Assembly: GCA_001790855.1 (NCBI GenBank)
Contig: MGDH01000039.1
Coordinates: 1 to 38,082 of the forward strand
Reading direction: 5' to 3'
Source: Candidatus Schekmanbacteria bacterium RIFCSPLOWO2_02_FULL_38_14
Lineage (GTDB): Bacteria > Schekmanbacteria > GWA2-38-11
Length of the DNA stretch: 38,082 nt
The stretch's first letter is position 1, and every line of letters begins with the position of its first letter. The notes below the pieces were generated by a model. That model had not been told where the DNA came from. It saw only the letters and a program-made list of their open reading frames with translations, and did not search any database. Of the stretch, positions 14,201 through 31,161 are shown piece by piece. The position numbers and the translations under genes were made by a program.

Positions 14201-14355
14201 AAATCCAAACAAAGGAAGTTCTAAATCCCAAGCACTAAATCCCAAACAAATCCAAAATTCTAAATACAAATATTCTAAACCAGTTTTGTTTAGGATTTTT
14301 AATTTTGGTCATTTGAGATTGTTTAGGATTTAGATATTGGAATTTGGAATTTTAT
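14201..14355. repeat. Long AT-rich inverted repeat built of 7/14-base units
   Basis: The nadK-recN spacer contains a left half with a 7/14-base period (CTAAATC, CCAAGCA, CTAAATC, CCAAACA, AATCCAA and so on from 14221) and a right half that is its approximate reverse complement. The outer arms 14234-14247 and 14320-14333 match at 13 of 14 positions, and an inner stem closes near 14274-14294. The whole can fold as an imperfect hairpin with arms near 48 bases. It contains no gene. Confidence 0.75.
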
Positions 14356-14358
14356 ATT

Positions 14359-15219
14359 TCATCTTTCCCCCCATCTCAACTTTGTTCTCAGGGTTTCGTA
14401 GTAGTTTCTTTCCTTTGGATGGATTAGAGTAATTCCCTTTTCTGCCTTTCTTATCTCAACAACATCCTTTGCCCTTAACGCAAAACCGACCTGTCCGTCA
14501 AAAGTGAGAAGAACATCCTCGTTTTCTGACTCAAGTATTACCTCAACCTTTGAAGCATCAGGAATCACAATTGGGCGGTTGCTAAGGGAGTGAGGGCATA
14601 TCGGAGAAAGAGCAATTACATTAAGGTCAGGGTAGATTATTGGTCCTCCTGCTGCAAGGGAATAGGCAGTTGAACCGGTTGGTGTCGAAATAATCAAGCC
14701 GTCAGCCCTGTAAGTAGTAAGGTATCTGGAATCAACATAGGTCTTGAGGGTTATCATTCGTGAAAGTGCGCCCTTTGTTATGACCACATCATTTAAAACA
14801 GAATACTCGCCAATCCTCTCACCCTGCCTGTGCACATGGGTTGAAAGCATAAGGCGCTTATCAGTTATGTAATCCCCTTTCAGCACCGCTCCAAGCACAG
14901 GATAGATATCATCAAGCTTTACCTCTGTTAAAAAACCGAGACCGCCAAGGTTTATTCCTAAAATAGGAGTATCCTTTCCCCCTATAAGCCTCCCAACGCT
15001 TAAAAAAGTCCCGTCTCCGCCAAGAACTAACAGGAGGTCAACCATATCAGGGATTTTATTCTTCTTGAAAACATTCCCATTAAATCCACCAAGAAGCGAT
15101 GCTGTATCTTCATCAAGAAAAGTTTCTATTTTCTTTTCTGCAAGCCACCGAACAAGTTCCCTGACAACATCTGGGGCTTTTTCTCTATGAGGCTTGGCGA
15201 TTATTCCAATTTTTTTCAT
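14359..15219 (-). CDS. nadK: NAD kinase
   Basis: Phosphorylates NAD to NADP. The 286 residues carry the diagnostic LGGDGTFLSVGRL (about 66-78), NLGGLGFLTEV, the LNDVVITKG segment, and the TPTGSTAYSLAAGGPI motif that binds the nucleotide. The C-terminal beta domain includes LTFDGQVGF. The ATG at 15219 follows AAAGGA about 6 bases upstream. It probably leads a nadK-recN transcript. Confidence 0.95.
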   Translation of the reverse strand: MKKIGIIAKPHREKAPDVVRELVRWLAEKKIETFLDEDTASLLGGFNGNVFKKNKIPDMVDLLLVLGGDGTFLSVGRLIGGKDTPILGINLGGLGFLTEVKLDDIYPVLGAVLKGDYITDKRLMLSTHVHRQGERIGEYSVLNDVVITKGALSRMITLKTYVDSRYLTTYRADGLIISTPTGSTAYSLAAGGPIIYPDLNVIALSPICPHSLSNRPIVIPDASKVEVILESENEDVLLTFDGQVGFALRAKDVVEIRKAEKGITLIHPKERNYYETLRTKLRWGER

Positions 15220-15444
15220 AAAAATTCCTTTTTTAAATTTTACTAATGATAGAAGGGAAAAATAAATTTTTCAATGCTAAAATACATTATAAAAGAGATT
15301 GCCAATTAGTTGCAGGTTGGTTATAGTCATTTTAATTTTTATCAGAACATGATTCCTATAGATGGATTCCTGAATTTATTTCAGAATCTCAAGTAGATGC
15401 TCAAACAGTTTCAGCATGATAGATTTTGATAATTTTAATCAAAT

Positions 15445-17100
15445 ATGAGTACATTGAAAAAAACTTTAAAACAAGCAATAATGGAGGCAATTGAAGTTTT
15501 CAAGAAAGAACTCGGGCAGGAAGAATTCCCTCCTCTTATTATTGAGATTCCCAAAGATGCAAAATTCGGTCATTTTTCTACAAACATAGCCCTTGCTCTT
15601 TCATCAAAATTAAATAAACCTCCAAGAAAGATTGCAGAAGAGGTTTTAAATAAATTCTCCTGCCCTGTTGTTGAAAAAACAGAGATTGCAGGAGCGGGGT
15701 TTATTAATTTTTTCATCACTGAAAAAGCCTGGCAGAAACTAATTCCTGAAGTAATTTTAAATGGAGAAAAATTCGGCTCCTCCAATATTGGAAATAATGA
15801 GAGGATACAGATTGAGTTTGTAAGCGCAAATCCAACAGGCCCTCTTCACATAGGCCACGGCAGGGGAGCAGCAGTTGGCGATGTGCTGGCAAATACCCTT
15901 GAGTTTGCTGGCTTCAATGTGGAAAGGGAATACTATATCAATGATGTTGGCATTCAGATGGCAAATATTGGAAAAACCCTTAAGGCGCGATACCTTGAAC
16001 TTTTAGGGAAAGAAACAAAATTTCCTGAAAATGGCTATCCGGGCGCATATGTGAGGGAGATTGCCGAAAAATTCAAAATTCAAAATTCAAAATTCAAAAT
16101 TCAAAATGATGATGATTTGCAGTTTTTCAGCGATTTTGCAGGAGAGAAAATCTTAGGAGGAATAAAGAAAGACCTTGAAAGTTTCAGGGTAAGATTTGAT
16201 AAATGGTTTTCTGAAAAAAGCCTTTTTGAAAGCGGAGAAGTAAAAAACTCAATTGAGCTGCTGAAGAAAAATGGTTTTATCTTTGAAAAGGAGGGCGCGT
16301 GGTGGCTCAAGGCAAGCGACTTTGAAGATGAAAAGGACAGGGTAGTCATAAAAACAGACGGTTCAACCACATATCTTGCTTCAGATATTGCCTACCATAA
16401 AAACAAGCTGGAGAGAGGCTATAAAAAGCTTGTCAATATATGGGGAGCAGACCATCACGGCTATATTCCCAGGATGAAAACCGTTGTAAGGCTGCTTGGT
16501 TACCCCGAAGAAATGCTCGCCGTGATACTCGTGCAGATGGTCAATTTACAGAAACACGGCAAACCTGTTGCCATGGGCAAGAGAGAAGGGGAGTTTGTTA
16601 CACTGAGGGAGGTAATGGATGAGGTTGGGGTTGATGCCTGTCGCTTCTTCTTTCTTGAAAGAAAAAGCAATGCTCATTTGAACTTTGACCTTGCCCTTGC
16701 AAAGGAGCAGTCAAATAAAAACCCTGTTTATTATGTTCAGTATGCCCATGCAAGAATCTGCAGTATTTTCAGCAAAGCAGAAGAGAAGGGAATAACCCTT
16801 CCAGAAATTGATAAAACTGATTTCAGCCTTCTCAATACAGAAGAAGAGCTTTCAATAATGCGTAAAATCTACCAGTTTCAGGAAATAATAGAGGTAATCG
16901 CCAATACCTGTGAACCACACCATCTTACTTTTTATCTGAAAGAACTTGTTGCCCTTTTCCACAAATATTATAATGAGCATCCGATTTTAGGAGATGAAAG
17001 CAGGCTTACAGATTCCCGTCTTGCCCTTTGTATGGCAATCAGGATTGTCCTTAGGAATGGAATGAGGCTTTTGGGAATCTCTGCGCCTGAAAGGATGTAA
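15445..17100 (+). CDS. argS: Arginyl-tRNA synthetase
   Basis: Class I synthetase that charges tRNA-Arg. The 551 residues include the N-terminal tRNA D-loop-binding domain (Arg-S N, about 1-90), SANPTGPLHIGHGRG with the HIGH motif (near residue 139), EYYINDVGIQ, the KMSK-equivalent AMGKREGEFVTL, and a C-terminal DALR anticodon-binding domain ending LLGISAPERM. Residues about 209-220 (EKFKIQNSKFKIQN) come from five perfect tandem copies of ATTCAAA (16071-16105), inserted in a region that normally varies in length. The frame is intact across it. The ribosome binding site before the ATG at 15445 is weak. Two tRNA-Arg genes lie elsewhere in the window. Confidence 0.95.
   Translation: MSTLKKTLKQAIMEAIEVFKKELGQEEFPPLIIEIPKDAKFGHFSTNIALALSSKLNKPPRKIAEEVLNKFSCPVVEKTEIAGAGFINFFITEKAWQKLIPEVILNGEKFGSSNIGNNERIQIEFVSANPTGPLHIGHGRGAAVGDVLANTLEFAGFNVEREYYINDVGIQMANIGKTLKARYLELLGKETKFPENGYPGAYVREIAEKFKIQNSKFKIQNDDDLQFFSDFAGEKILGGIKKDLESFRVRFDKWFSEKSLFESGEVKNSIELLKKNGFIFEKEGAWWLKASDFEDEKDRVVIKTDGSTTYLASDIAYHKNKLERGYKKLVNIWGADHHGYIPRMKTVVRLLGYPEEMLAVILVQMVNLQKHGKPVAMGKREGEFVTLREVMDEVGVDACRFFFLERKSNAHLNFDLALAKEQSNKNPVYYVQYAHARICSIFSKAEEKGITLPEIDKTDFSLLNTEEELSIMRKIYQFQEIIEVIANTCEPHHLTFYLKELVALFHKYYNEHPILGDESRLTDSRLALCMAIRIVLRNGMRLLGISAPERM
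16071..16105 (+). repeat. Five perfect tandem copies of ATTCAAA inside argS
   Basis: Five consecutive identical 7-base units, preceded by an extra run of A. Because 7 is not a multiple of 3, three units encode seven residues, which explains the repeated peptide KIQNSKF. The unit has no stop codon in any frame on the coding strand, so the gene stays open. Confidence 0.95.
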
Positions 17101-30899: not shown

Positions 30900-30977
30900 C
30901 TCATTATTATTTTAAGAAAAGTTCACCTCTTTCTGCCTTGACAAATCTTTTTAAGACATTTAAAAGAAAACACACCT

Positions 30978-31051
30978 GTGCCCGTAGCTCAGTTGGATAG
31001 AGCAACGGACTTCTAATCCGTAGGTCGGGGGTTCGAATCCCTCCGGGCACG
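30978..31051 (+). tRNA. tRNA-Arg (anticodon TCT)
   Basis: A 74-base cloverleaf. The acceptor arms GTGCCCG and CGGGCAC pair perfectly. The D arm has AGCTCAGTTGGATAGAGC, the anticodon stem ACGGA/TCCGT encloses CTTCTAA with anticodon TCT, and the T arm is GGGGGTTCGAATCCCTC. The discriminator is G, and CCA is not encoded. It reads AGA codons. Confidence 0.95.
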
Positions 31052-31058
31052 ATAAAAC

Positions 31059-31161
31059 AGTGAATAGTCGTTAGTGAATAGTGAACAGGGATTATAGATT
31101 GATTAATTCTTTTAATATTCAATTAGTTTTGCTATTTACTATTCACTGAATACTATTCACT
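31059..31161. repeat. Inverted heptamer repeats between two tRNA genes
   Basis: The left arm (31059-31093) divides into AGTGAAT, AGTCGTT, AGTGAAT, AGTGAAC and AGGGATT. The right arm (31134-31161) divides into ATTTACT, ATTCACT, GAATACT and ATTCACT, the reverse complement family. An AT-rich 40-base centre separates them. The element occupies nearly the whole spacer between tRNA-Arg and tRNA-His. Confidence 0.85.

Follow-up and report, generated by a model that had tools for sequence, protein, structure and literature searches.

Tandem arrays that keep a period of seven bases while their unit sequences differ are dispersed over the genome of Candidatus Schekmanbacteria bacterium RIFCSPLOWO2_02_FULL_38_14. 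They form the opposed arms of hairpins as well as in-frame arrays in genes, they are gained and lost between related genomes and differ in length by single units, and one palindromic form is distributed over unrelated genomes and phages. We give an even chance to the reading that these arrays are horizontally moving hairpin/heptamer elements, which grow and shrink by single 7-base units. The preference of bacteria for heptamer repeats has awaited an explanation since at least 2007, and it becomes testable here, the material being close phages with the same gap empty or differently filled, together with one recognisable palindrome of unrelated bacteria. Should they prove mobile, the evolution of spacers and the small in-frame insertions into proteins would have a very widespread cause that has been overlooked; should the arrays be born by slippage, they would point to a 7-nt property of replication.

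Genome sample and scans

The window, i.e. the whole stretch of 38,082 nucleotides that was analysed, is an entire contig (C39) of an assembly comprising 2.68 Mb in 43 contigs (99.4% complete). All genome statistics are derived from 80 stretches plus the window, together 1.47 Mb or 55% of the 2.68-Mb genome. Arrays were scanned for as exact runs with at least 10 matches and as scored imperfect arrays, with a fifth-order Markov simulation as control. The close comparison genomes are one of the same family, belonging to a sister genus (G001), and, at the level of the order, G002 and G003. No named match of CysS exceeded 58% identity, and the lineage is therefore a deep one. Rfam searches of the window at gathering thresholds detected tRNAs and a 6S RNA only, the latter at 37743-37944 on the minus strand, adjoining tRNA-Arg.

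A period of seven bases across the genome

The preliminary description of the window had reported units of different sequence with a constant, dispersed and strict 7-nt period, and had made this claim depend on a period histogram. This histogram shows a strong excess at 7: we detected 72 imperfect arrays at period 7 in the 1.47 Mb sampled, compared to 0-13 at each other period from 4 to 24 and to 2 at period 7 in the simulation, so that the claim is borne out genome-wide. Exact runs with at least 10 matches numbered 41 at period 7 (6 in the simulation), 39 at period 14 and 30 at period 21, and 0, 13, 10 and 20 at periods 5, 6, 8 and 9, respectively. Autocorrelation of the intergenic DNA peaks at 7, 14 and 21, too. 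The sister genus also exhibits a period-7 peak of 33 arrays, while no other period between 4 and 15 exceeds 11. Next in rank comes period 8, with 13 arrays in the window genome and 11 in the sister genus; in the former it is represented largely by one composite family.

The majority of the period-7 arrays (53 of 72) are located outside ORFs of at least 80 aa, although such DNA makes up only 11% of the sample. Their unit sequences are many, including AGCTATC, GCTTATA, AAGTTTC, AAAATTC, GTGAATA, TAAATCC, TTTGAAC, AAGGCAA and AGCGGTC, and a contiguous conserved core inside the units was looked for without a signal. For about a quarter of the arrays (20 of 72) an inverted counterpart lies no more than 250 bp away (score at least 14), compared to 3 in reversed and 2 in shuffled controls. 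The spacers are often mosaic, with palindromes nested within each other. Co-directional, convergent and divergent spacers of the window genome contain 28, 12 and 8 arrays (28.1, 9.4 and 10.5 expected); there is no bias, and a terminator or promoter role derived from the spacer type was rejected.

The six sites in the window

The preliminary description had located 7-base arrays at five or more places in the window and a sixth, mostly 8-base, array. All six sites were found again, with refined coordinates:

About 14208 to 14352, no strand assigned: H1 element, an imperfect palindrome of about 145 bp in the nadK-recN spacer (DNA fold z -3.5)
16068 to 16107, plus strand: perfect in-frame array (AAAATTC)5.7 in argS, encoding KFKIQNSKFKIQN in a loop
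18692 to 18756, plus strand: opposed arms in the tsaC leader, AAGTTTC-type then CTGANNG-type, just upstream of the start codon
19453 to 19544, plus strand: composite upstream of rpmH, with period-8 outer arms GGATTATA/GGGTTCTA ... TCCTTGAC and a short AT-rich core
29634 to 29669, plus strand: perfect in-frame array (AGCGGTC)5.1 in cysS, between the catalytic and the anticodon-binding domain
31059 to 31162, no strand assigned: inverted GTGAATA-type arms (31059-31085 and 31132-31162) in the tRNA-Arg/tRNA-His spacer (DNA fold z -6.3)

These sites are of three kinds, i.e. plain in-frame arrays, hairpins with opposed heptamer arms, and one composite whose outer arms have indeed a period of 8. The arrays in argS and cysS both sit in loops of variable length and form no hairpin in DNA folding. 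As a possible widely common element the array of the tRNA spacer was dropped, since it matched only 4 of 290 genomes, mostly by short partial matches.

In addition, a separate period-8 family (AAGGATTCAAGGGGTC...) forms the outer arms of composites with period-7 cores (L031:14326, L066:5189, L078:512, L082:3889, L083:17721, L085:2929); the site at 19453-19544 of the window resembles a member. Upstream of the tsaC array (window 18495-18600) a GC-rich hairpin pair GGGTAGGGGCGACTTTAGTCGCCC ... GGGAGGCTAAAGCCTCCCCTACCC was observed, and hairpins of this kind (GTAGCCGCAGGCTTTAGCCTGCG) also fill other spacers and the argS loop in the sister genus.

Turnover between related genera

Instead of H1, the nadK-recN spacer of the sister genus contains an unrelated GC-rich palindrome. 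Its argS loop comprises two other heptamer arrays (GGGGCAA-type and AGCTGAT-type) flanking a GC-rich hairpin, and its tsaC leader another AT-rich palindrome that looks array-like by eye. No array was found at the spot orthologous to the composite upstream of rpmH. Among 66 orthologous spacers, 51 have no array in either genus, 4 have one in the window genome only, 9 in the sister genus only, and 2 have arrays with different units in both. Arrays have thus been gained and lost between the two genera, and the possibility that these loci are conserved unchanged, raised in the preliminary description, does not hold. Co-occupancy of the 66 spacers by the two genera was not above chance (p = 0.22), and preferred insertion sites were rejected on this basis. 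The counterpart of one array (L037:11618-11710) is near-empty in the sister genus (25 nt); comparable sites there are too diverged or mosaic for reading target-site duplications.

H1, a palindrome shared by unrelated genomes

In the 1.47 Mb sampled, the window genome has about 20 copies of H1, complete or partial. When 17 copies are aligned (7 of the window genome, 10 of other genomes), AA in the left and TT in the right arm are near-invariant; they recur every 7 nt except for a single step of 11 nt in each arm, and the copy in the nadK-recN spacer is phased in the same way. Conservation along this alignment has an autocorrelation of 0.51 at lag 7 and hardly any at the other lags from 3 to 13. 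H1 copies fold as DNA hairpins (z -3.5 to -5.8). RNAalifold detected a conserved structure of only 8 pairs, the arms being out of register through indels, and folds of single copies were used in place of its consensus.

Of 290 genomes sampled across the domain, 22 gave a blastn match to H1 and 1 to its reversed sequence; H1 is carried by 20 of the 286 genomes that are classed only as the same domain, i.e. outside the family and order of the window genome. The palindrome is common to unrelated genomes and phages at 70-81% identity. Copies are 69% identical within the window genome and 65% between genomes, a comparison with a bias, since the copies of other genomes had been retrieved through their resemblance to that of the window; two copies of the window genome have their nearest relative in another genome. 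Neither 72,556 plasmids nor 50,697 named phages contained a match to H1, and both were dropped as carriers.

A pattern search detected AGCT-core heptads in 41 of 386 genomes, and because the reversed control also matches about two dozen genomes the pattern was used for co-occurrence only. These control matches possibly represent another heptamer family. Heptads with a TCGA core, which is the pattern of the reversed control, occur by the dozen in two genomes (G019, G358) and suggest such a further family. AGCT-core heptads occur in 11 of the 22 H1-positive genomes compared to 19 of the 268 others (p = 7e-7; p = 2e-5 without the genome's own family). This co-occurrence fits a common host-level cause and is the best support for one. 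To this extent the earlier proposal of one mechanism is supported. The part of it that holds irrespective of sequence is not supported in that form, since there is no single sequence-blind structure but several recognisable families: the nadK-recN array belongs to a palindromic family of unrelated genomes and one further site to a period-8 composite family.

Phage contigs

The H1 core matches 7 viral contigs, in several of which full H1 palindromes lie between or beside phage structural genes. PHROGs matches on the H1-bearing contigs include a major head protein (1.9e-57) and a portal protein (2.6e-15). One phage gap, which separates a head-adaptor-like gene from a virion structural gene, was compared in 31 relatives whose upstream gene is intact. 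It contains GAAC-core heptads in 10 of them, GTCATTGCGAG hairpins in 9, AGCGGTC/CTGAAAG inverted heptads in 3, AGCTGAT heptads in 2, H1 in 1 and other sequences in 3; the remaining 3 gaps are empty, consisting of 5 nt (TAA TTCTG ATG). AGCGGTC is the unit of the cysS array in the window, too. Between a phage with an AGCTGAT array (L426) and one with an empty gap (L440), the upstream gene is 93.8% identical. Within one family the gap lengths differ by exactly 7 (57/64 nt, 24/31 nt).

The GTCATTGCGAG...CAATCTC palindrome replaces the heptamers in this gap just upstream of the start of gene A in L342, L343, L346 and L384. In a further relative with an altered call of the upstream gene, the gap is occupied by a period-9 palindrome, and non-coding period-9 repeats (GAACCCAAC/GAACTCAAT) occur in phage spacers (L388:2922-2997, a palindrome; L366:440-515; L339:4022-4052).

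In the GAAC arrays the core is constant, while the other positions (NTW) vary and are often uniform inside one array. Two phages (L364, L427) have a perfect array, (TGAACTT)4 TGAAC ATG, flush between stop and start. Such perfect, young arrays, together with the one-unit length steps and the many unit sequences, would be expected from a purely local origin, by which slippage with a 7-nt preference acts at each site, arms form by fold-back template switching and nothing moves; a 7-nt slippage step originating from the polymerase footprint is an older suggestion credited to Mrazek 2007 in PMC4679880. This origin is possible but on balance unlikely, as the same GAAC core recurs in several gaps of a single phage and an entire palindrome of about 145 bp is common to unrelated genomes and phages, with the reversed control nearly absent.

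Alternatively it might be that selection keeps the arrays as binding sites of a protein reading single-stranded RNA or DNA at a 7-nt pitch, e.g. a cold-shock/OB-fold protein or another translational regulator. In agreement with this, GAAC is kept across phages while NTW varies, the arrays stand flush to start codons, and AA/TT are invariant every 7 nt in H1 with variation at the other positions; MacGregor proposed such a role for the TAACTGA repeats near start codons (PMC4679880). We nevertheless consider it doubtful: arrays of the window genome show no preference for a spacer type, most orthologous spacers lack them, and some phages have nothing but 5 nt in the gap.

A possible origin of the arrays

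Movement of hairpin/heptamer elements combined with local change is the reading that we prefer. Movement is needed because H1 occurs in unrelated genomes, near-empty sites exist and phages carry the element; unit-wise local change is needed because of the 7-nt steps and the local uniformity. The elements would be short, non-autonomous and mostly non-coding, with arms of 7-nt units and in a minority of 8 or 9. Hairpin elements such as H1 may spread between genomes, with phages as one carrier, and settle where nothing vital breaks, i.e. in gaps between stop and start or in frame in tolerant protein loops. Subsequently, replication slippage with a preferred 7-nt step would lengthen, shorten and homogenise the arrays unit by unit, so that arrays at the same site would diverge in sequence yet keep the period. 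The step may be set by the replication machinery, and the elements may be moved in trans by a transposase, or else by recombination. For the plain, hairpin-free arrays in argS and cysS the spread as hairpins is a proposal. The 7-periodic conservation of H1 exceeds the needs of neutral slippage, and because of this conservation at lag 7 a reader protein may still have a part.

More speculatively, the arrays may represent a previously undescribed, phage-borne class of mobile elements common to unrelated bacteria, whose code would be a dinucleotide every seven bases in a hairpin, and which would be moved or maintained by a dedicated DNA- or RNA-binding protein of 7-nt pitch and continually rewrite the gaps between genes. 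We regard this as unlikely.

Y1_Tnp was detected in 18 of 22 element-positive compared to 14 of 20 negative genomes, and four positive genomes have none. There is no clear association, RAYT/Y1_Tnp was set aside as sole mover, and no transposase could be tied to the elements. One Y1_Tnp (HUH transposase-like) fragment (L083:16094-16273) is flanked by a GC-rich hairpin pair, GGGTAG...CTACCC, and not by heptamers, which resembles REP/RAYT units.

The short tandem-repeat DNA recalls the products of a telomerase-like reverse transcriptase of the DRT10 kind, which would copy a short RNA template repeatedly, the product being integrated; DRT10 does make tandem-repeat DNA, with 9-nt units in Eco3DRT10 (PMC12632851). 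Such an origin is highly improbable and was rejected, as the window genome (99.4% complete) gave no match to RVT_1; nor do the data require a reverse transcriptase. RVT_1 is lacking in 16 of the 22 element-positive genomes, too, and the unit sequences are too numerous for one template.

Relation to known repeats

Some of these features resemble repeats known from other organisms. In cyanobacteria, STRR sequences are intergenic tandem heptamers with several unit families, and long-arm palindromic elements are not known to be among their defining features. Set side by side by description, they share with the present arrays the intergenic tandem heptamers and the several unit families. The preliminary description had placed heptamer repeats in filamentous cyanobacteria; this is too narrow, since many prokaryotes are reported to have a heptamer excess (Mrazek 2007, cited in PMC4679880; PMC4692102), including the G-rich heptamers GGGAATC and GGGGATT in Xanthomonas and Nostoc (PMC4692102). 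As far as these sources describe them, the prokaryotic repeats share with ours the 7-nt period, degenerate units, a mostly intergenic location and inverted arrangements. We likewise found the period-7 excess, the intergenic majority and copy-number changes by whole units between relatives. Unlike in those repeats, there are many unit families in the one genome, palindromes of about 145 bp in unrelated genomes and phages, turnover at the level of sites and in-frame arrays in enzymes.

TAACTGA direct repeats are found near start codons in Beggiatoaceae, Cyanobacteria and Bacteroidetes (PMC4679880). They resemble our arrays in the heptamers near start codons, the patchy occurrence over distant groups and 7-nt length differences between close strains. 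They differ in being a single unit, direct and hardly ever inverted, with no phage carriage reported (PMC4679880), whereas our arrays have many other units, commonly opposed arms and no spacer-type bias.

MITE and REP-type elements (reviewed in PMC10969869) are short, palindromic, dispersed and intergenic like H1, whose dispersed palindromic copies have no coding capacity either. In contrast to these elements, H1 has periodic arms, no transposase link and no demonstrated terminal repeats with target duplication. The heptamer excess, the patchy TAACTGA arrays near starts and the in-frame palindromes of Rickettsia are known (PMC4679880, PMC4692102, PMC10969869), while heptad-armed palindromes across lineages and phages and the turnover at the level of sites look new. 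A limited literature search yielded no description of a heptad-armed palindrome common to unrelated bacteria and phages, nor of a phage gap in which one heptamer family takes the place of another.

In-frame arrays in other genes

Judged by eye, the other genes with in-frame arrays look like proS, hemW, ubiE/menG, an lpxL-like acyltransferase, a glycosyltransferase and ppx. The Rickettsia palindromic elements, palindromes of about 150 bp inserted in frame into genes (PMC10969869), are similar in size and in the in-frame insertion. In our case most in-frame insertions are plain heptamer arrays, with other hairpin inserts in addition, and the palindrome, H1, is common to unrelated genomes and was seen inside no confirmed gene. 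Three genes read as ppx, lpxL-like and hemW (L076, L028 and L080, respectively) contain in-frame inserts encoding PPLAKGGWGD-type peptides, which are apparently translated GC-rich palindromes.
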